From Chloracidobacterium sp. CP2_5A (lineage in GTDB: Bacteria; Acidobacteriota; Blastocatellia; Chloracidobacteriales; Chloracidobacteriaceae): DNA of 32,623 bases. Positions 1 to 14,848 of the stretch are shown one piece after another. Where the stretch lies: contig NKPT01000039.1 in NCBI GenBank assembly GCA_002254845.1, positions 1 through 32,623 on the forward strand, read 5' to 3'. The position numbers and the translations under genes are program-made. Within the stretch, counting starts at the first letter, position 1, and each line of letters begins with the position of its first letter. The notes below the pieces were generated by a model. That model did not search any database. It was given only the letters and a program-made list of their open reading frames with translations, and had not been told where the DNA came from.

Positions 1-16
1 GGAGGCACCATCTTCA

Positions 17-616
17 ATGACCGCGCCAGCTACCGCGATTCAACCGCACCGCCATCCCGATTTGGCGGACATGTTTCGGCAGGCCGAAGGCAAGTACTTT
101 ACGGATGCCGAGTTCGCCAAGCTCGAAAGCTATTATCCGAACCTCTCGGCGCACATTGAGGCGGCTAAGGACGTGCGCGCCAAGGAAACCGGCATCGTCG
201 GGCGCAGCGTGAAAGAGATTTACACGATGTACCCTTACGAGCAGCACCATGAGCACGCCACCGCCAAGTGCGTTCGCGACGCGCGCTACGTGCTGTCATA
301 CGCGACGCTCTCCATGCTCATCGACGACACGCGGTGGTTTGAGGATAAGCTGCTGATTTGGATGAAAACCATCTTACAGGCCTTTGAGTTCCCGGAAAGC
401 GGGCAGACCGATGCCATGCGCGAGGCCTTTGCCAGGATTGACCCGGCCTTGGCGAACAAGCTCAAGCCGCTCAAGGGCAAGGTGAAGTCCATTTATCATA
501 TGTATTACGTTATCAAGCGGGAGTGTCAGCAGGGGCTGCAGCCGACGAGCTTTCGACTGATAGAACCCTATCTTGACCTTGCCATGAACGTGCTGTCGGA
601 GGACTACGGAGCATGA
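17..616 (+). CDS. phycobilisome-domain (globin-fold, phycobiliprotein-like) protein
   Basis: This 199-residue protein resembles phycobiliprotein subunits. The central helix reads AKCVRDARYVLSYAT, followed by an acidic turn and WFEDKLLIWMKTILQAFEFP. This matches the C-L-R-D...RYVTYA...GD...L.GL.E..... pattern around Cys84 of allophycocyanin and phycocyanin. Cys85, Arg87 and Asp88 sit where Cys84, Arg86 and Asp87 attach and hold the bilin in that family. The rest is predicted helical, and the length is a little over the usual 160-175 residues, with an N-terminal extension. There is no signal peptide or membrane segment. The ATG at 17 has GGAGG at 1-5, 11 bases upstream. The stop overlaps the next gene (ATGA). 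Whether it binds a bilin is inference; it could be a structural paralogue with an empty pocket. Confidence 0.72.
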   Translation: MTAPATAIQPHRHPDLADMFRQAEGKYFTDAEFAKLESYYPNLSAHIEAAKDVRAKETGIVGRSVKEIYTMYPYEQHHEHATAKCVRDARYVLSYATLSMLIDDTRWFEDKLLIWMKTILQAFEFPESGQTDAMREAFARIDPALANKLKPLKGKVKSIYHMYYVIKRECQQGLQPTSFRLIEPYLDLAMNVLSEDYGA

Positions 617-1257
617 TGCTTGCCACAACCGATTTGCTCGAAGGCTTAGAGAATTTCTTTGATGAAGCGCGCCTTGGGTTTGACTTGCGCGAAGGCACGC
701 TCTGGAACCCCGCCAAGACGCGCCTGTGCCTGCTGTCAACCGACTTTCTCTCCGGCGTCTATGCCGCCGTCAAGGACGAAGCCGGCCCCGCCTGGCCAGT
801 CATCTTCAAAACCTGCGGACGGATTTGGGGCGAGCGCATTATGCGCCGCCTGGAGCGCGAGGCGCAGACCGTTGGCAATCTTCAGCTCCGCGAAATGCCG
901 GTGACGATGTTTTTGCGATTCTTCCGCGAGTACTTCGTCTATCACGGCTGGGGGCTGATGACGATTGACGTCGCGCAGGCGCGCGAGACAGGCATCGTGG
1001 TTGCCACGCTGGAAGACTCTATCTTCGCCGAAATCATTCGCGATGAAGAGGATTTTTCCGACCCGCTGATCGCAGGCATCCTCGCCGGGATGATGAGCCA
1101 CATTAGCGGTCACGAGCTGGATTGCGTCCAGACCGAGTGCATTTCGCGCGGCGCGGAAGCCAGCCGCTTCGTCGTGACTGGCGCGGCGCGCCTTCGCGGG
1201 ATTGACGAAAAAATCAAGAGCGGCATGACGCACGAGGAAGTCGTCGCCAGCGTGTAG
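613..1257 (+). CDS. V4R (4-vinyl reductase) domain protein
   Basis: This 214-residue protein has a C-terminal V4R domain (roughly residues 100-195), the domain of BchJ and of several small-molecule and tetrapyrrole-associated proteins. Visible hallmarks are DPLIAGILAGMMSHISG, then the Cys171-x4-Cys176 pair in ELDCVQTECISRG, then a closing strand SRFVVTG. V4R domains often carry a further cysteine near that strand; here it is a serine (Ser184), so any metal site may use other ligands. The N-terminal part (residues 35-90) is helical and aromatic-rich. The start overlaps the upstream stop by four bases, so the two proteins are translationally coupled and probably act together. A second in-frame ATG at 616 is possible. 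The ligand is unknown; a bilin or (bacterio)chlorophyll intermediate is a guess from context. Confidence 0.72.
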   Translation: MMLATTDLLEGLENFFDEARLGFDLREGTLWNPAKTRLCLLSTDFLSGVYAAVKDEAGPAWPVIFKTCGRIWGERIMRRLEREAQTVGNLQLREMPVTMFLRFFREYFVYHGWGLMTIDVAQARETGIVVATLEDSIFAEIIRDEEDFSDPLIAGILAGMMSHISGHELDCVQTECISRGAEASRFVVTGAARLRGIDEKIKSGMTHEEVVASV

Positions 1258-1339
1258 GTCGCTGATTTTCGAGCGCGCCGCACCCGGTTATCCGGACTGA
1301 AGGGGCGTCCTGGTCAGGTTCCGGGGCAAGTCTGAGCTT

Positions 1340-3094
1340 ATGGCATATGAGACGCTCAAACTCATTGGCAGCGGCGCCCATGCCATCGTCCACTTGGCGC
1401 GAGACGAGACCACCGGCGAGCTTTACGCGATCAAGGAATTCCTGGGCGGCGGCAGGGCCGCCCATCTCTTTTTCCGCGAGCTATCTTCGCTGGTGACCCT
1501 TCAGCACCCCAACATTGTCCGATGTTTTGATGTCATCTATGGACAGGGCAACCAACGCAACAAGCTGGTGTTGGAGTACGCCACCGGCGGCAGCCTCCGC
1601 GACGTCCTCAACCAGCGCGGCTCGCTGCCCCTGCTAGAAGCGATTCGCGTTATGCGCGATGTGGCGGCCGGGCTTGGCTACGCCCATGACCATCAGATTC
1701 TGCACCGCGACTTGAAGCCGGAAAACATTCTGGTCTTTTCTGACGCAAGCGCCGGGACGACCGTCTACAAGGTTGCCGATCTGGGCATTGCCAGTCACTT
1801 GGCGAATGTTTCTGACCAACAGAAGCCCAATGGCTCGCCGGCCTATATGGCGCCGGAGCAGTTCTACGACTTTTCGACCTACGCCAGCGACCTTTACTCG
1901 CTGGGCGTCATTTTTTACGAAATCCTGACTGGCGACCGCCCCTTTCACGGCGTGGCGGAAGAGCTGTTTGCCAAGCACGCCAAGCAGCCCCCGGACTTGC
2001 GCCCGGTTCCGGAGTCGGTTCGCCCTATCGTCGAGGCGCTCCTGCATAAGTCGCCTGGAGAGCGGCTTCGCTCAGCCCACAGCTTGCGGTCGGCGCTTGA
2101 CGCCCATTTAGACCCGGCCGCCGCGCCGCGCCGGACGGAAGCGCCGGCCGTCGTCGAGCCGGCCGTGACGCAGCCGCCGGAGATGGCGCTGGAACGGGCC
2201 CACCGCCTCGAGCCGTGGTTTACCCTAGAGCTAGCCGGCAGCCAACGGCTTTTCACGCTCAACCCGGCGCAACGCGCAACGGTTTACATTGTTGACGAAC
2301 GCTCGACGGGCTTTCTCGAGCTCGAGCGACGACGCTTTGTGCCCTACTTCCTGCCGGAGCGCATCACCGCCGCCGCGACTTCAGACCTGGCGTCAACAAC
2401 AAGCTACTTCGCGACGAACCATAGTCTCTACGCTCTCAAGGCCGGAATGGCTTCGCCCCAGCGGCTGTTTCAGCTCCAGTTTCCAGTCACGAGCTTGGCG
2501 GTGACGCCGTCAGAAACGCTGCTCGTTCTGGCCAATCAGGCGAGCGCCGCCGGCTATTCGCCGGAAGGTCGCCGACTCTGGGAAGTCGAGATTTGCAACT
2601 ACGTGCAGTCGCCGCAGATTGTGCCGCTAAGCGACGATGCGATTCTCGTCGTTTCCGGCCCGATTCGGCCGGCTGTGACCTGCCTTGACGCCGCCGGCGG
2701 CGTCAAGTATCGGGTTTCGCTGCCGTCTCCGGCGCTCGCCATTATGCGCTCCACGACTGGAGGCGACTTTCGCGCCGTGCTTTTCGGCGACGGCGACCGG
2801 CAGCCGATGCGGCTGGCCACCTTCGCTGGCGACCAACAGCTCGCCGAGACGGATTTGGGCGAGCCGGTTTACGCCGCCAACTATCATGGGCGGTTTGTGA
2901 CGTTTTTTCATTCCTCTGGCAGCGTTTCCCTGGTATCGGACGGATTACCGATTGCTGAATATCGCCCGTCCGGTATGATACTGGACGACGCCTGGGCGCC
3001 GGCGGCGCGGGCGTACATCAACATCGAACGGCGGCCGCCGCGAACCCTCGTGAATGTTTTTCGCCTGATGGAAGCGACACAGCCCTCTGCCTGA
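1340..3094 (+). CDS. Hanks-type Ser/Thr protein kinase with C-terminal beta-propeller-like domain
   Basis: The 584-residue protein starts with a complete kinase domain (about 5-265). It has a Gly-rich loop GSGAHAIVHLA, Lys32 in AIKEF, catalytic HRDLKPEN (Asp124), DLG at 147-149 in place of DFG, and APE at 171-173. Residues 270-300 form a Pro/Ala-rich linker. Residues 305-580 are short beta-rich repeats (for example LFQLQFPVTSLAVTPSETL and AGGVKYRVSLPSPALAIM) that resemble a degenerate PQQ/WD-type propeller. No membrane segment is evident, so the kinase is probably cytoplasmic. It lies 82 bases after the V4R gene on the same strand. In Synechocystis a V4R-containing operon also carries a kinase (SpkG), which supports a functional link but does not prove it. 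The catalytic residues are intact, so activity is expected. Confidence 0.9.
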   Translation: MAYETLKLIGSGAHAIVHLARDETTGELYAIKEFLGGGRAAHLFFRELSSLVTLQHPNIVRCFDVIYGQGNQRNKLVLEYATGGSLRDVLNQRGSLPLLEAIRVMRDVAAGLGYAHDHQILHRDLKPENILVFSDASAGTTVYKVADLGIASHLANVSDQQKPNGSPAYMAPEQFYDFSTYASDLYSLGVIFYEILTGDRPFHGVAEELFAKHAKQPPDLRPVPESVRPIVEALLHKSPGERLRSAHSLRSALDAHLDPAAAPRRTEAPAVVEPAVTQPPEMALERAHRLEPWFTLELAGSQRLFTLNPAQRATVYIVDERSTGFLELERRRFVPYFLPERITAAATSDLASTTSYFATNHSLYALKAGMASPQRLFQLQFPVTSLAVTPSETLLVLANQASAAGYSPEGRRLWEVEICNYVQSPQIVPLSDDAILVVSGPIRPAVTCLDAAGGVKYRVSLPSPALAIMRSTTGGDFRAVLFGDGDRQPMRLATFAGDQQLAETDLGEPVYAANYHGRFVTFFHSSGSVSLVSDGLPIAEYRPSGMILDDAWAPAARAYINIERRPPRTLVNVFRLMEATQPSA

Positions 3095-3105
3095 ATGACC
3101 TGCGC

Positions 3106-3297
3106 ATGTATCGAAAGCCGCGTTTTCTGGAAAAACTTCACCTCATCCGAGAAGAGCTTGCCGAAGCCTGTGGCTATGATGCAGAGCGATTGACGGACCT
3201 GCTACGGCGTGAGGACTCATCCGCGTTGTCGCCGCTTGACGAGCCGCCACTCCAGCACTCGCTGCCCATTGGGGCGCCGTTTCAATCGAGTCAATGA
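3106..3297 (+). CDS. small hypothetical protein (63 aa), coupled to htrA-like gene
   Basis: I do not recognise this 63-residue protein. The N-terminal half (RKPRFLEKLHLIREELAEACGYDAERLTDLLRR) is predicted as two charged helices; the C-terminal half is Pro/Ser/Gln-rich and probably disordered. It starts 11 bases after the kinase stop, and its TGA overlaps the ATG of the next gene (ATGA at 3294-3297). That tight fit on both sides, with the same GC-rich codon use, is the main argument that it is translated. It could be a small adaptor of the kinase or protease, or simply a leader cistron that drives translation of the protease. No function can be assigned. Confidence 0.6.
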   Translation: MYRKPRFLEKLHLIREELAEACGYDAERLTDLLRREDSSALSPLDEPPLQHSLPIGAPFQSSQ

Positions 3298-4322
3298 CGT
3301 TACCTTGCCTTCGGCTTCTGGCTTGTTTGCTCATCTGGGCGGGCGCGAGTTCAGTGACCGCGCCCGCCCAGCGACCGACAGCCCGCAACGCGCCGCGCAA
3401 TCCCGCGCCGGCAACTTTCCCAAGCATTGCCGATGTCGCGGACCGCGCCAACGGGGGCGTCGTCAACATCCAGTCGGTTTCGGAAGACGGCGGAACCTCG
3501 ATTGGCAGCGGCTTTTGCCTGGATGCCAAAGGCGAGCTGGTGACGAACTTCCACGTCATTCGAGACGCGCTCAAGATTGGCGGCCCCATCCTGGTCGTGA
3601 CCCAAGATGGGCGCACTTTGCCGGCCAGCGTGCGTGGCTACGATGAGGCCACCGACTTGGCTCTGCTCGAAGTTGACCTCGGCCAAGCGCCGCTCCCGGT
3701 TCTTCCGCTCGGGAACAGCGATGCGGTTCGCGTCGGGGATTGGGTCATCGCGATTGGCAGCCCGTTTGAACTCGATCACAGCGTGACGGTCGGCATCATC
3801 AGCGGCAAGGGCCGCAGCGGGCTAGACGGCGCGTATGACGACTTCCTGCAAACCGACGCCGCCATCAACTTCGGCAACTCCGGCGGTCCGCTCGTGGCGC
3901 TAACGGGCGAAGTCATTGGGATCAACACTTTGGTTCTAGCCCGCGGGCAGGGCTTAGGCTTCGCCATTCCGGTCAACATTCTGAAGGACATCCTGCCCGA
4001 CCTGCGAACGCTTGGGCGGGTGCGCCGCAGCTCCATCGGCGTTGAAGCCGCGGATATTTCAGCGTTTGATCGGCGCGGGCTGGGGTTGACCGGCGCGGCT
4101 CGCGGCGTGCGCGTCGTTAAGGTCGAGCGCGGGATGCCCGGCGATCAGGCCGGCATCCGGCGCAACGACGTGATCCTTGCGGTGGAGAACATGCCGGTTG
4201 CCTCCAGCGGACACTTCAACCGGCTGGTGGCGCGCAGCCGTCCGGGCGCGGCCGTCCAGATTCGGATTCGCCGCGAGGAGAAGGAATACACGGTCACCGC
4301 CACGCCCATTGAAAAGAAATAG
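3294..4322 (+). CDS. HtrA/DegP-type serine protease with PDZ domain
   Basis: This 342-residue periplasmic or secreted trypsin-like protease has an N-terminal hydrophobic signal segment (residues 4-25). The protease domain (about 45-235) has the triad His87 (VTNFHVI), Asp121 (ATDLALLEVD) and Ser196 (NFGNSGGPLV). One PDZ domain follows at about 250-340 (GVRVVKVERGMPGDQAGIRRNDVILAVE). Family members trim or degrade misfolded envelope proteins, often as trimers activated through PDZ binding. With a single PDZ domain it is closer to DegS or cyanobacterial HhoA/HtrA layouts than to two-PDZ DegP. The start overlaps the preceding small gene. Its place after a kinase and pigment-like genes would fit envelope or photosystem quality control, but that is inference. 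Confidence 0.9.
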   Translation: MTLPCLRLLACLLIWAGASSVTAPAQRPTARNAPRNPAPATFPSIADVADRANGGVVNIQSVSEDGGTSIGSGFCLDAKGELVTNFHVIRDALKIGGPILVVTQDGRTLPASVRGYDEATDLALLEVDLGQAPLPVLPLGNSDAVRVGDWVIAIGSPFELDHSVTVGIISGKGRSGLDGAYDDFLQTDAAINFGNSGGPLVALTGEVIGINTLVLARGQGLGFAIPVNILKDILPDLRTLGRVRRSSIGVEAADISAFDRRGLGLTGAARGVRVVKVERGMPGDQAGIRRNDVILAVENMPVASSGHFNRLVARSRPGAAVQIRIRREEKEYTVTATPIEKK

Positions 4323-4379
4323 TCATTACACCCAATGTAAGCCCCACCTCATCCGCAAGGAGCGACTTTTTCCCCTCTC

Positions 4380-4823
4380 ATGACCCCGCAAAATCCATAC
4401 CAACAGTCGCCATACCCGCCATCCAATCCTTACCAATCCGGGCCGCCGAGCGGCGGGAATCAACCCGGCCCGCTAGGCCTACCACCGAATGTCGCCAGCC
4501 TGCTCGCCTATGCGCCCTGCTGCATCGGCCTCATTATGTCGATCATCTTGGTCATCACGGAAAAGACCAATCGCTTTGTCAAATTCCACGCTTGGCAGGG
4601 GCTGTTTTTTCACTTGGCGCTGGCGGCGATCGGCATTCTGAACTCGCTTCTGGGGATCGTTCTTGGGAACATCAGCAGCCTGCTTTCACTGGTTTCGACC
4701 CTTTTCGGCCTGGCGATTTTCCTGGGCGGGCTTGGGTTATCCGTTTTTCTGATGGTCAAGGCCTATGGCAACGAAACGCTCAAGCTGCCACTGCTTGGCG
4801 ACATTGCGGAAAAACAGTTATAA
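4380..4823 (+). CDS. DUF4870/UPF0132-like small membrane protein
   Basis: The 147-residue protein begins with a Pro/Gln/Tyr/Ser-rich cytoplasmic tail (residues 1-35, NPYQQSPYPPSNPY). Three hydrophobic segments follow at roughly 38-60, 74-98 and 105-128. The stretch VASLLAYAPCCIGLIMSIIL...EKTNRFVKFHAWQGL is the hallmark of this family: a first membrane helix, an acidic-basic loop, then FVKFHAWQ at the start of helix two. The molecular function of the family is unknown. AAGGAG at 4357-4362 is the nearest ribosome-binding-like sequence, 17 bases before the ATG and so rather far. It lies 57 bases after the protease gene and 17 bases before the next gene, in the same orientation. Confidence 0.8.
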   Translation: MTPQNPYQQSPYPPSNPYQSGPPSGGNQPGPLGLPPNVASLLAYAPCCIGLIMSIILVITEKTNRFVKFHAWQGLFFHLALAAIGILNSLLGIVLGNISSLLSLVSTLFGLAIFLGGLGLSVFLMVKAYGNETLKLPLLGDIAEKQL

Positions 4824-4840
4824 GCCGCCTTGGATGCCCC

Positions 4841-6199
4841 ATGCCGACCGCTATTGACTATTTTCACCAGCTCATCGCCGCTGACCCTTCAGCGGCAAGC
4901 GCCGCCGCCGACCAGCTTGACGCGGCGCTTATCGCCCGTGGCATCCTCTTTGCTGGCAAGGCGATGCCGGTTCACCTGCGCCCGCACTTCCTCGCCCCTG
5001 ATGAGCGGCGGCGGCTTGAGGTCGCCGCGGTCGGCGTCTTGCGCGCCGCGCTGATGGCGGAGCAGGGCCTTTTCGGCGGCGACCGCGAGCGGCTCTACGC
5101 GGCGCTCCGTCTTCACGACGCCGAGCGTCGCCTTCTGCGCATCCATCCGGGCTACGACGACGCCGTTGTCTGGACGCGCCTGGACGCCTTCCCGACGCCG
5201 GACAACGTGTTATTTCTGGAGTTCAACCATGACGCGCCAGCCGGGATTGGCTACTCGGCGGCGATGACGGAAATCTACCTTGAACTCCCCATTCTCAAGC
5301 GCTTCGCCAAGCGGTTCAGCCTGGCGGGCGACGATCCGCGCCCGGCGCTGCTTGAAGCGCTGCTCAAGGCCTACGCGGCGTTTGGCGGGCAAGAGCGGCC
5401 TAACATTGGCATCGTGGACTGGACGGACGTGAGGACTTCGTCTGACCAAGTCATCCTGCGGGACTACTTTATCGCGCAGGGTCATGCGTCGGTCATTGCT
5501 GATCCGCGCGAGGTCAAGTTGCGACGCGGCCGGCTCTATGCCGGCGATCTTCGGCTGGACATCGTCTATCGGCGAGTCGTCACGAGCGAGTTGCTCGCAA
5601 AGCTCGATGAAGCCCGCGACTTCGTTGCGGGCTATGAAACTCGCGCCGCCTGTTTCATCAACTCCTTCCGCTGCCGCGTCAGCGAAAACAAGGCCTTTCT
5701 CGGCTTTCTAACCGACCCGGAGCAGCTTTCCTTCCTCTCGGATGACCTGCGGCAGGCGCTGCTTCGGCATCTTCCCTGGACGCGCGTGGTGGCCGAGCAA
5801 TCAACCAGCTTGTCTGATGGCCGCCGCATTGACCTATGCGAGCATGCAGCCCGTCATCGGGCGGACTTCGTGCTCAAGCCGGCGGATGCCTACGGCGGGA
5901 CGAACGTTTATATTGGAAGCGAGACTGACGACGAGACCTGGGAGGAAGCCTTGCAGCGGGCGCTCAAGGATGACGCCCTCTGGGTGTTGCAACAGCGGGT
6001 TTCGACCCCAACCGAGATCTTTCCAATCCGGCAAGCCGACGGGGGCTTCGCCTTGTATCCTATGAAATACAACATCAATCCGTTCTGCCTGGGCGGACGG
6101 GTTACCGGGGCTGTTGCGCGGACCTCGCGGAGCGCCGTCATCAACGTGAGCGCAGGCGGCGGGAGCATTCCCGTCTTCACCGTCGCCCCCGTCTCATAA
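4841..6199 (+). CDS. ATP-grasp-like protein (circularly permuted/glutathionylspermidine-synthase-like fold)
   Basis: The 452-residue protein is soluble and has no signal peptide. I chose the ATG at 4841 (MPTAIDYFHQL), 17 bases after the previous stop. The same frame stays open further upstream but would overlap the membrane-protein gene by more than 200 bases. The N-terminal half has VLFLEFNHDAPAGIGYS, recalling the E-x-N acidic motif of ATP-grasp ligases. The C-terminal half has DFVLKPADAYGGTNVYIG (Lys346 and a Gly-rich loop), WVLQQRV, and a terminal GGGSIPVFTV. These fit a nucleotide-binding ATP-grasp core of the kind that joins a carboxylate to an amine. Substrates are unknown. Its position at the end of the operon does not identify a pathway. 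Confidence 0.68.
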   Translation: MPTAIDYFHQLIAADPSAASAAADQLDAALIARGILFAGKAMPVHLRPHFLAPDERRRLEVAAVGVLRAALMAEQGLFGGDRERLYAALRLHDAERRLLRIHPGYDDAVVWTRLDAFPTPDNVLFLEFNHDAPAGIGYSAAMTEIYLELPILKRFAKRFSLAGDDPRPALLEALLKAYAAFGGQERPNIGIVDWTDVRTSSDQVILRDYFIAQGHASVIADPREVKLRRGRLYAGDLRLDIVYRRVVTSELLAKLDEARDFVAGYETRAACFINSFRCRVSENKAFLGFLTDPEQLSFLSDDLRQALLRHLPWTRVVAEQSTSLSDGRRIDLCEHAARHRADFVLKPADAYGGTNVYIGSETDDETWEEALQRALKDDALWVLQQRVSTPTEIFPIRQADGGFALYPMKYNINPFCLGGRVTGAVARTSRSAVINVSAGGGSIPVFTVAPVS

Positions 6200-11218: not shown

Positions 11219-14200
11219 GTGACACGGCTTTTGGTCAGTTTTTACAACACCGGCATTCAGCTTGGCTGGCTTTGCCTGTGGTCGGCGCTGGCCCTGGCGT
11301 CCGATGCCAAGTCGCTGCGCGACTACACCCTAGACGCCTGGCGCGACGAGCTGCCCCAAGCGGCGGTGCTGGCTGTGGCGCAGGATCGCCGCGGCTACCT
11401 GTGGATTGGCACGTACGAGGGCCTGGCGCGCTTTGACGGGGCGCGGTTCGTCGTCTTTGACAAACGCGCGACGCCGGCCTTTCGCAATCATAATATCCGG
11501 TGCATCTTCGAGGACCGGGACGGCGCGCTGTGGATTGGAACCTTCGGCGGGGGCGTCGTTCGCTACCAAAGCGGCGAGTTTGAAAGCTTCACCGCCGAGC
11601 AGGGCCTCAGCAGCGACTTTGTGATTGACGTGGCGCAAACGCCCGACGGGGCGCTGTGGCTGGCCACTAGCCGTGGACTGACCCGCTGGCACAACGGCCA
11701 GTGGCGAACCTTTACGGTCCAGGACGGCTTGCCGCTGGACAGCCTGCAACAACTGTCGCTTGCGCCCGACGGCGCGCTGTGGGTTGGCACCTATGGGCGC
11801 GGCCTATCCGTCTTCCGGGACGGCGCCTTTCAGAACTATTCGCTCAATGGCGGCAAGCCGAACGACATCGTGTACGCGCTGCACATCGCGCGCGACGGAA
11901 CGGCGTGGGTCGGCACCAATCAGCAGGGACTGCTCCGCCTGAACGCGCAGGGTCAAGTCCTTGAGCGATACGCGCGGCCGACGGGCTTCCCCGACGATGT
12001 GGTTCATGCCATTTACGAAGACTCCGATGGCGCAATCTGGGTGGGCACTGAAAACGGCGGGCTGGGAAGGCTCGCCCATGGCCGGCAGGACTGGCGCGCG
12101 CCCAGAGACGGGCTTTTGCACCACTTCGTCCGCGCCATCTGCCGCGACCGCGAGGGAAGCTACTGGATCGGCACGAACGGCGGTCTCAACCGCCTGCGCG
12201 AGTCAAAGATTGTCAATCTCGCGACGGATCACGGCCTGACGGACGCCAACGCTCGCGTTGTCTTCGAGGACTCGCGCGGGCGGCTGTGGGTCGGTCTTGA
12301 TGAAGCCGGGCTGGATTGCCTCGAAGCCGGGCGCTGGAAACATTACGGGCTGGCGGAGGGGCTGAAAACGCTTGGCGTTCGCGCCATTGCGGAAGACGAG
12401 CGGGGCGACATCTGGCTCGGTCTCAATCAGGGCGGCGTGGCGCGCTTCGACGGTCGCCGCTGGACATCGATTACGACGGCGCAGGGTCTGACCACCGACA
12501 ATGTCTACGCCCTGTGCGCGGCGCGCGACGGGACGCTTTGGGCGGGCACGGTCGGCGGCGGCATCAACGTCCTCCGCGCCGGGCGAGTTATCCGGATGAT
12601 TGATCCGCAAAGCGACAAGATTACCGGCGGCAACATCCGGGTCATCGCCCAGGGACGCGACGGCGCGATGTGGGTCGGCACCAACGGGCGCGGGCTGATG
12701 CGGGCGCAAGGCGAGGAAATCGCCCGCTTCACTACCAAGGAAGGACTGCCCAGCAATCTGGTGTTCGCCCTTCATGAGGAAGCCGACGGCACGCTTTGGA
12801 TCGGCACCGGGGGCGGGCTGGCGTGGCGCCGCGATGGAAAGTTTGGCGTCATCGCCCACAAGGACGGACTGTTTGACGACACGGTGTTCGCCATTGTGCC
12901 CGACGCCAACGGCGACTTCTGGATGAGCTGTAATCGCGGCATCTTTCGCCTTGAGCGGCGCGAGCGCGAAGCCTTTATGTCCGGCGCGCAATCGCGGGTC
13001 GTCTGCGCCAGCTTTGACATCAGCGACGGCATGGGGGCCAATCAGTGCAACGGCACGTCGCAGCCCTGCGCCATCCGCCGCCGGGATGGCGCGCTGATGT
13101 TTGCGACCATTGGCGGCGTGGCCGTGGCGAAGCCGGAGCATCTGCCCTTCAACGCGCAACCGCCGCCAATCGTCATCGAGCATCTCGAGCTTGACGGCAA
13201 AGCGCTTCCCGCTCAGCCGACGCTGACCGCGCCACTGGGCGCGAAGAAGCTTGACATTCACTACGCGGGGCTGAGCTTTCTCGCGCCGCAGCGCATGCGC
13301 TTCCGCTTTCGCCTTGAAGGCTTCGACCGCGCCTGGGTCGAGGCCGGAACGCGCCGGACGGCGTACTACATGAACCTTCCGCCGGGAACCTATCGGTTTC
13401 ATGTCACCGCCTGCAATAACGACGGCGTCTGGAACGACGCCGGCGCGACGATGACCATCGTCATCCAGCCGTTTTTCTACCAGACGGCCTGGGCCAAAGG
13501 GCTGGCGGTCTGCGCGCTGGGGCTGCTCCTTTGGGGCGGCTTCCGCTGGCGCACGCTGACGCTGCGACGGCGAGCGGACGCGCTGGAGCGCCAAGTTGCG
13601 GTTCGAGCGGCGCAACTCCAGGAAAAAAACGCCGCGCTGGAGCGCGCGCTGGCGGAGGGTCAGGCAGCGCAGCGGGAAGCGCAGGTCAAAAACCGCGAGC
13701 TGGCGCGTAAAAACGAGGCGCTAGCGGAACTCCACCGACGCGCCGACGCCATCTTCACGGCGCTGACGGATGTGTTGCCGGGGACGGTCATTGATGGCAA
13801 GTACCGCATTGGCGAGAAAATCGGCGGCGGCGGCTTTGGCATTGTCTATCGCGCCGAGCAAATCGCGCTGCAGCGCCTGGTCGCCATCAAGATTTTTCGC
13901 CCAAGCGGCAAAAACGCCACGACCGCTAGCGTCGAGCGATTCCGCCGGGAAGGCGTTTCCGCCTGCCGGATTAACCATCCCAACGCAGTCGGCGTCATTG
14001 ACTCCGGCGTGTCGGCGGACGGCATCGCCTATCTCGTTATGGAGCTATTGCAAGGCGTCTCGCTGGCGACGGAAATCAGCCTCTGCGGCCCGTTCTCGGT
14101 CGAGCGGAGTCTGGCCGTGATCTTGCCGGTGTGCGACGCGCTGGCGACCGCTCATGAATCCGGCGTCATCCACCGCGACATCAAGCCGGACAACATTTTT

Positions 14201-14848
14201 CTGCATCAGATGCCGGAGGGCGAGGTCGTCAAGGTCGTGGACTTCGGGATCGCTAAGCTGATCGAGCCGGATGCCAATGACCCGCTGGCGGCGATGACGG
14301 AAACAGGCGGCGTGGTCGGGACGCCGATTTACATGGCGCCGGAGCGATTGGACGAGCGCCCGTACGATGGGCGCTCGGATGTCTACAGCGTCGGCATTAT
14401 GCTTTACGAGATGCTCTGCGGGCGCCCGCCATTCCCCCCGACGGAGACCGGCATGCTGGGCGTCATCATCGGGCATCTCAAGCAACCGCCGCCGCCGATG
14501 CCTGGCGTCCCCCGGGAAATTGCCGCGGTCGTCTTTCAGGCGCTGGCGAAGTCGCCGGACGAGCGCCCGACCGCGCGGGAGCTTGGCGATCGCTTGGCGG
14601 CAGCGGCCGGCATCGCGCCTTACCACGGGGCGCCGGTCACAACCGGGCGGCTGAAGCTGAGGCCTTCGCCGCTCGACGAAGAGGACTCGGAAACAGTCCC
14701 GCCCCAATCGCAAGCCACGACCCTGATGAGACGCTCGCTGACGGACCGAAGCTGCCCGCCGGAGACGCAATCGAGCTGCGGCGATGGCGCCGCCGCCCGC
14801 CGCCCGCTCCTCAGCGGCGACGTGACAACCGCCACCGATTGTGATTGA
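11219..14848 (+). CDS. membrane receptor kinase: double propeller + Y_Y_Y + TM + coiled coil + Hanks Ser/Thr kinase
   Basis: This 1209-residue protein is an unusual fusion. A signal peptide (about 1-28) leads into some 13 repeats of the two-component-regulator propeller type (LWIGT..GLARFDG), spanning residues 45-580 and enough for two seven-bladed propellers. A Y_Y_Y domain follows at about 680-750 (GTYRFHVTACNNDG), then one membrane helix (about 757-777) and a coiled coil (780-850). The kinase domain runs from about 862 to 1125, with Lys891, HRDIKPDN (Asp987), DFG (Asp1008) and APE (1040-1042). A Ser/Thr-rich tail ends it. The sensor half is that of periplasmic glycan-sensing hybrid two-component proteins, but the output is a Ser/Thr kinase, not a histidine kinase. 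The GTG at 11219 is the first start after an in-frame stop at 11201; TTG at 11231 is an alternative. Confidence 0.92.
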   Translation: MTRLLVSFYNTGIQLGWLCLWSALALASDAKSLRDYTLDAWRDELPQAAVLAVAQDRRGYLWIGTYEGLARFDGARFVVFDKRATPAFRNHNIRCIFEDRDGALWIGTFGGGVVRYQSGEFESFTAEQGLSSDFVIDVAQTPDGALWLATSRGLTRWHNGQWRTFTVQDGLPLDSLQQLSLAPDGALWVGTYGRGLSVFRDGAFQNYSLNGGKPNDIVYALHIARDGTAWVGTNQQGLLRLNAQGQVLERYARPTGFPDDVVHAIYEDSDGAIWVGTENGGLGRLAHGRQDWRAPRDGLLHHFVRAICRDREGSYWIGTNGGLNRLRESKIVNLATDHGLTDANARVVFEDSRGRLWVGLDEAGLDCLEAGRWKHYGLAEGLKTLGVRAIAEDERGDIWLGLNQGGVARFDGRRWTSITTAQGLTTDNVYALCAARDGTLWAGTVGGGINVLRAGRVIRMIDPQSDKITGGNIRVIAQGRDGAMWVGTNGRGLMRAQGEEIARFTTKEGLPSNLVFALHEEADGTLWIGTGGGLAWRRDGKFGVIAHKDGLFDDTVFAIVPDANGDFWMSCNRGIFRLERREREAFMSGAQSRVVCASFDISDGMGANQCNGTSQPCAIRRRDGALMFATIGGVAVAKPEHLPFNAQPPPIVIEHLELDGKALPAQPTLTAPLGAKKLDIHYAGLSFLAPQRMRFRFRLEGFDRAWVEAGTRRTAYYMNLPPGTYRFHVTACNNDGVWNDAGATMTIVIQPFFYQTAWAKGLAVCALGLLLWGGFRWRTLTLRRRADALERQVAVRAAQLQEKNAALERALAEGQAAQREAQVKNRELARKNEALAELHRRADAIFTALTDVLPGTVIDGKYRIGEKIGGGGFGIVYRAEQIALQRLVAIKIFRPSGKNATTASVERFRREGVSACRINHPNAVGVIDSGVSADGIAYLVMELLQGVSLATEISLCGPFSVERSLAVILPVCDALATAHESGVIHRDIKPDNIFLHQMPEGEVVKVVDFGIAKLIEPDANDPLAAMTETGGVVGTPIYMAPERLDERPYDGRSDVYSVGIMLYEMLCGRPPFPPTETGMLGVIIGHLKQPPPPMPGVPREIAAVVFQALAKSPDERPTARELGDRLAAAAGIAPYHGAPVTTGRLKLRPSPLDEEDSETVPPQSQATTLMRRSLTDRSCPPETQSSCGDGAAARRPLLSGDVTTATDCD

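Follow-up and report, generated by a model that had tools for sequence, protein, structure and literature searches.

The occurrence of a phycobilisome-type gene in Chloracidobacterium raises the question of what a protein built like an antenna subunit does outside the cyanobacteria. The window, which is the whole stretch of 32,623 nucleotides analysed here, is contig C30 of genome G000 (3.41 Mb in 385 contigs). A sequence-only reading had proposed a phycobilisome-fold protein with the residues of a bilin-attachment site in an apparently non-cyanobacterial genome, and the host is indeed non-cyanobacterial, though phototrophic. The gene and its motif are located as follows.

17–616, plus strand: BBAG-1 (bilin biosynthesis-associated globin, phycobiliprotein-related), 199 aa; identified from PF00502, the AlphaFold2/Foldseek/VIA-align fold, the tree and orthologues in 7/7 genomes of the genus.
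269–280, plus strand: bilin-type motif Cys85-Val86-Arg87-Asp88; from the translation and from alignment to allophycocyanin beta and other BBAGs.

The Phycobilisome family PF00502 is the sole strong Pfam family in the protein, matching residues 23–191 at 77.4 bits (E 1.5e-21); with a cut-off of 22.2, the match is not due to chance, and the HMM search thus bears out the proposed family. Cys85, Arg87 and Asp88, numbered from Met1 and preceded directly by Lys84, align with phmmer onto the Cys-x-Arg-Asp of allophycocyanin-beta, as had been claimed. The AlphaFold2 model, built from an 11-row alignment, is helical throughout (pLDDT 85, pTM 0.83). The fold was supported in both structure searches: Foldseek returned phycobiliproteins or phycobilisome chains in 50 of 50 rows (E ~1e-3 to 1e-2, TM ~0.5–0.6), and phycobiliproteins fill almost all VIA-align rows, of which the best is the small engineered protein smURFP, a biliverdin binder (Z 13.9, rmsd 2.2 over 127 residues), followed by the allophycocyanins. 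The family assignment rests mainly on sequence and less on fold. BBAG is the single PF00502 protein of its genome; six further genomes of the genus have orthologues, and a match in an uncultured Chloracidobacterium sp. reaches 94% identity. Cyanobacterial contamination was rejected on the basis of identical gene order in the two-contig Chloracidobacterium genomes G004, G001 and G005. A phage origin was also rejected (no phage match), as was a plasmid origin (the plasmid matches are cyanobacterial).

In an unrooted tree of 23 rows, the antenna proteins stand apart as a group of their own with support of 98/98. The window protein falls with the BBAG-1 rows in one group (80/91, and 78% of bootstrap trees), and the cyanobacterial BBAGs from Acaryochloris plasmids are the neighbouring or sister clade. 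The best antenna equivalog score of the protein is 36.6 bits, against 228 needed for apcB. From the grouping with BBAG-1 and the scores far under the antenna cut-offs, the protein belongs to a family already published and is its copy in a new species. The BBAG family was defined by Rockwell, Martin and Lagarias in 2023 in PNAS, and Chloracidobacterium was already named there (PMC10151467); the surprise of a phycobilisome-fold protein outside the cyanobacteria is therefore already in print, for this genus among others. We conclude with high confidence that the window encodes BBAG-1, a globin-fold relative of the phycobiliproteins with Cys-x-Arg-Asp, in a Chloracidobacterium operon, and that a pre-PcyA-type FDBR and a third V4R protein lie at a second locus. 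The earlier description of an evolutionary relative of antenna subunits is upheld, as family, fold and Cys-x-Arg-Asp are common to both and the protein lies outside the antenna clade.

The type example of BBAG-1 is POZ53552 from Methylovulum psychrotolerans, which took up bilins in E. coli with no lyase present; the recombinant protein was photoinactive, both BBAG-2 holoproteins were photoinert, and the quantum yields of the tested BBAGs were 3–7% (PMC10151467). The window protein is 36–37% identical to that of the M. psychrotolerans locus (L077) and belongs to the same clade. The two have in common the Cys-x-Arg-Asp, a cluster with a 2Fe-2S protein and two V4R proteins (contiguous with BBAG in G004), and a pre-PcyA FDBR in the genome. 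In contrast to Methylovulum, the FDBR of Chloracidobacterium lies at a separate locus beside a third V4R protein. Moreover, the Methylovulum cluster is paired with a heme oxygenase (HO), whereas no HO, a usual feature of BBAG-1 clusters or genomes, was found in the seven Chloracidobacterium genomes. The authors of the family state Chloracidobacterium as an exception without HO (PMC10151467), and HO is accordingly typical of BBAG-1 and not defining. Lyase-free bilin binding is established for other BBAG-1 members and is predicted by analogy in Chloracidobacterium.

Cyanobacterial BBAGs of the slr0149 type, in Synechocystis slr0144-slr0152 and in the plasmid-borne Acaryochloris copies (L080, L081), likewise stand together with a V4R pair and a 2Fe-2S protein, but they are shorter (155 aa), have a long branch and lack an FDBR in the cluster. 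Light-harvesting phycobiliproteins such as allophycocyanin, phycocyanin and phycoerythrin have the globin fold and motif in common with the window protein. They differ in their separate clade and in a two-subunit assembly with linkers and lyases; the window has no linker or lyase genes, and one PF00502 protein per genome in the seven genus genomes leaves no paired alpha and beta subunits. The photoglobins (BBAG-2) are distant PF00502 relatives fused to B12 domains, whereas the window protein is PF00502 alone with V4R and kinase neighbours. The photoglobin-type copy in the class (G100, locus L032) reads KCLQD in place of Cys-x-Arg-Asp.

The gene adjoining BBAG, which the sequence-only reading left unnamed, and the kinase gene that follows it continue the operon.

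613–1257, plus strand: V4R-B, a V4R-domain protein (PF02830), the next gene after BBAG in 15/15 loci.
1340–3094, plus strand: Ser/Thr protein kinase of 584 aa with a C-terminal propeller-like domain (PF00069, 163.9 bits; YAIK, HRDLKPEN and ADLG intact).

V4R-B scores 28.8 bits against PF02830 in the protein scan, just below the 31-bit cut-off, and 31.1 bits in the genome search. Its start overlaps the BBAG stop as ATGA (613–616), and translational coupling of the two genes is likely. No promoter-like site was found in window positions 1–3400, an uninformative result. The earlier statement that no linker, lyase or other phycobilisome gene is nearby holds within the window but says little of the full neighbourhood, as the window begins at a contig end (G000:C30:1) that severs the operon. 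BBAG, V4R-B and the kinase remain in the window, and the other genes are found on contig C11 of the same genome (L092): a helical protein at 1–491, V4R-A at 540–1220, then the 2Fe-2S, FNR, coiled-coil and response-regulator genes. The two-contig genome G004 shows the genes in the order response regulator with DUF4388, coiled coil, FNR-like reductase, 2Fe-2S, V4R-A, helical protein, BBAG, V4R-B and Ser/Thr kinase.

The kinase directly follows V4R-B in 14 of 15 loci, with one gene between them in the Opitutales locus L075. These loci span Chloracidobacterium, G008, G012, Eremiobacterota, Opitutales, an unclassified bacterium and Methylococcaceae. The catalytic motifs, intact in the window copy, are mostly so in the other loci. 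The C-terminal half is common across phyla: a five-row profile finds the remaining rows at 46.7 down to 6.6 bits, weakest in the farthest. The portions of the published BBAG-1 account available to us do not give the kinase, FNR, coiled coil or response regulator of the Chloracidobacterium operon as core, and set aside the adjoining Synechocystis genes (PMC10151467). At the end of the Synechocystis slr0144-slr0152 operon, slr0152 is the kinase SpkG (PMC3102658), also a Ser/Thr kinase like that of the window when set beside it by published description; the Acaryochloris copies have no adjoining kinase. At L071:4137-5776, the kinase of the BBAG operon occupies two ORFs (kinase and C-terminal domain) with a 4-base overlap, from either a true split or a frameshift. 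At 11219–14848 on the plus strand, the window also has an ORF of 1209 aa, unrelated to the BBAG operon, in which propeller-like segments recur and a Ser/Thr kinase domain with intact motifs lies at the C-terminus.

A search of the genome for heme oxygenase and bilin reductases, suggested with the sequence-only reading, gave a divided answer: one reductase was found and no heme oxygenase. The FDBR occurs in 7/7 genus genomes and in G008 and G012. Its locus (G000:C379; L027:6842-9446), conserved in the genus, comprises FDBR, the third V4R protein, a small protein and a ParA-like ATPase, and all three V4R proteins are kept in 7/7 genus genomes. In the alignment the enzyme has Thr for PcyA His88 and Glu for Asp105, the Glu76 position being uncertain. 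According to published work, pre-1 FDBRs lack PcyA Glu76, His88 and Asp105, and one of them is weakly active despite this loss; the Chloracidobacterium FDBR is consistent with the loss at His88 and Asp105. For heme oxygenase, PF01126 gave nothing above cut-off in 11 genomes with E values up to 1. The control worked in Synechococcus, and PF01126 also recognises the HOs of the Methylovulum and Methylomonas clusters. A profile made from those cluster HOs found no heme oxygenase in the seven Chloracidobacterium genomes, G008 or G012. PF14518 matched clearly in G012 alone, with no match above cut-off in Chloracidobacterium; its weak matches, considered as an alternative HO, resemble a TPR protein in the one Chloracidobacterium genome checked. 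Phytochrome was considered as an alternative bilin user and was found in none of nine genomes searched, which include the seven of Chloracidobacterium and the sister genus.

Motif conservation was scored over 11 aligned BBAG-1 rows. Lys84, Arg87 and Asp88 are invariant in 11/11, and Cys85 is gone in three, representing two lineages: it is replaced by Ala in G008, a phototroph from the same family as Chloracidobacterium, and the Methylococcaceae BBAGs L078 and L079 read KAHRD, keeping Arg-Asp without Cys. Cys85 is retained in 7/7 Chloracidobacterium genomes. With Arg87 and Asp88 invariant and Cys85 variable, the holding of a tetrapyrrole is likely the conserved feature, and covalent attachment is not.

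A link to phototrophy is suggested by gene distribution. G000 carries the type-I reaction-centre gene (PF00223), which is found in 8/147 relatives, and BBAG is present in 8/8 of these; among the 147, BBAG without PF00223 occurs in G012 only, together with FDBR. The other PF00502 match among relatives, in G100, is the B12-domain photoglobin-type protein and not BBAG-1. Since seven of the eight genomes are one genus, the co-occurrence counts as two lineages and not eight. The second lineage is G008 (L071, contig JAAFHI010000108.1), of the same family and another genus than Chloracidobacterium, with the type-I reaction-centre gene, BBAG (Cys85 to Ala) and FDBR. A 2026 paper gives Chloracidobacterium as the sole phototrophic acidobacterial genus. 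The label Actinomycetota of JAAFHI010000108.1 looks wrong. In Synechocystis, the proteins Slr0144-Slr0149 are located at the thylakoid, and AP-MS has confirmed that they interact (PMC9880817); their operon, slr0144-slr0152, has been linked to the assembly and function of PSII (PMC9145668). Chlamydomonas is a case in which PSI and chlorophyll synthesis can be under bilin control although neither phytochromes nor phycobiliproteins take part, and in which bilins can also be made independently of HO (PMC9393634).

We tentatively propose that BBAG is the subunit that binds a tetrapyrrole in a regulatory complex of V4R and 2Fe-2S proteins, and that this complex serves the biogenesis of the photosystem or of pigment; pigment binding, an optional Cys85 tether, the complex, the kinase output and the biogenesis role are what we infer. 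BBAG would bind an open-chain tetrapyrrole without a lyase, with Asp88 and Arg87 holding it by its pyrrole nitrogens and its propionate in the phycobiliprotein manner; Cys85 would be able to tether the pigment covalently and yet be dispensable. By analogy with Synechocystis, it would carry the pigment within a complex that also contains the two V4R proteins and the 2Fe-2S protein; electrons would come from the FNR, and the downstream kinase would relay the state of the complex. The complex would most likely adjust pigment supply, or how the photosynthetic apparatus is assembled or repaired, and not harvest light. As no heme oxygenase was found, the pigment would be either scavenged from the mat or the product of an unrecognised route. 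The tetrapyrrole carrier named in the sequence-only reading is plausible and comes near to this proposal. Against it, the cell may lack bilin altogether, given the HO result; the FDBR is without PcyA His88 and Asp105, Acaryochloris clusters are without an adjoining kinase, and the co-occurrence covers only two genera. In addition, heterotrophs, Methylovulum among them, also have BBAG-1 clusters, and the ancestral role of BBAG-1 therefore cannot have been in a photosystem.

The identity of the ligand and the need for one separate two further explanations from the proposed pigment-bearing complex. The ligand could be a chlorophyll-pathway tetrapyrrole instead of a heme-derived bilin, with BBAG and V4R carrying or sensing intermediates or catabolites and the FDBR relative acting on such a product. 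The missing HO, the retention of BBAG, FDBR and three V4R proteins throughout the genus, the presence of BBAG in every relative with a reaction centre, and the divergence of FDBR at His88/Asp105 are all in its favour. The V4R domain is named after the 4-vinyl reductase BchJ, which also counts for it. We consider this rather unlikely, because heterotrophs such as Methylovulum, which have no chlorophyll, pair the same cluster with HO, and because the Asp/Arg/Cys motif suits open-chain bilins. The absence of HO could also mean that BBAG is a pigment-free (apo) scaffold that kept its complex-forming role and lost pigment binding, and the loss of Cys in the sister genus and in Methylococcaceae fits. 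That is quite improbable with Arg87 and Asp88 invariant, Cys kept in 7/7 Chloracidobacterium genomes, and an FDBR retained in the same genomes that would be pointless without a tetrapyrrole substrate.

Two other roles rely on light. The light sensor, one of the roles offered in the sequence-only reading, would be a BBAG-bilin adduct that senses light and signals via the V4R proteins and the kinase. It would account for the pigment-type motif, the intact catalytic motifs, the response-regulator and coiled-coil genes at the operon head, and the lack of phytochrome in the nine genomes; it is distinctly unlikely in view of the photoinactive POZ53552, the photoinert BBAG-2 holoproteins (PMC10151467) and the loss of Cys85 in the sister phototroph. 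A light-harvesting subunit of a minimal phycobilisome has fold and motif on its side and is otherwise extremely improbable: the protein is single copy with no second subunit, lies outside the antenna clade and under all antenna equivalog cut-offs, and tested BBAGs have quantum yields of 3–7% (PMC10151467). We rejected the antenna role on copy number, equivalog scores and tree position. Chloracidobacterium, moreover, already has chlorosomes.

Beyond the family assignment, the remaining interest lies in the function of BBAG in a phototroph without recognised heme oxygenase and in the conserved kinase. A more specific proposal, speculative and on the unlikely side, is that the BBAG/V4R/2Fe-2S/kinase module works free of HO, on a scavenged or chlorophyll-derived open-chain tetrapyrrole, as a kinase-coupled pigment sensor for type-I reaction-centre or chlorosome biogenesis. 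If true, it would be to an anoxygenic phototroph what the slr0144-slr0152 operon is to cyanobacteria, and would suggest a regulatory complex as the ancestral phycobiliprotein setting. BBAGs are the closest non-antenna kin of phycobiliproteins. The kinase kept beside V4R-B offers a concrete hypothesis for that ancestral role, namely signalling. Chloracidobacterium (C. validum, C. thermophilum) keeps BBAG, FDBR and V4R without a recognisable heme oxygenase, and because it is cultured, with a type-I reaction centre but neither phycobilisome nor phytochrome, the ligand and role of BBAG are directly testable in it.

Giant proteins with Cys-x-Arg-Asp segments adjoin FNR/FDBR or BBAG genes in G012, Opitutales (L075) and Eremiobacterota (L074 and L076).

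L076:14308-19611, plus strand: giant protein of 1767 aa with Cys-x-Arg-Asp segments.
L029:1450-3636 and 3645-5723, minus strand: giant proteins of 728 and at least 692 aa.
L075:1-1596 and L074:6003-6705: giant proteins with Cys-x-Arg-Asp segments.

No Pfam match above cut-off was found for them, and none occurs in Chloracidobacterium. Comparison of their domain with BBAG in hhalign was not significant (2% probability). A four-segment profile has phycocyanin alpha as its best PDB match (E 6e-5), the top rows being nearly all phycobiliproteins, and a low-confidence domain model (pLDDT 68) finds phycobiliproteins first and other globins next. These loci apparently hold a second kind of phycobiliprotein-like domain. 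In L076, the kinase and giant-protein genes of the BBAG locus are separated by a DUF3386 gene (13566–14294; PF11866, 113.7 bits).
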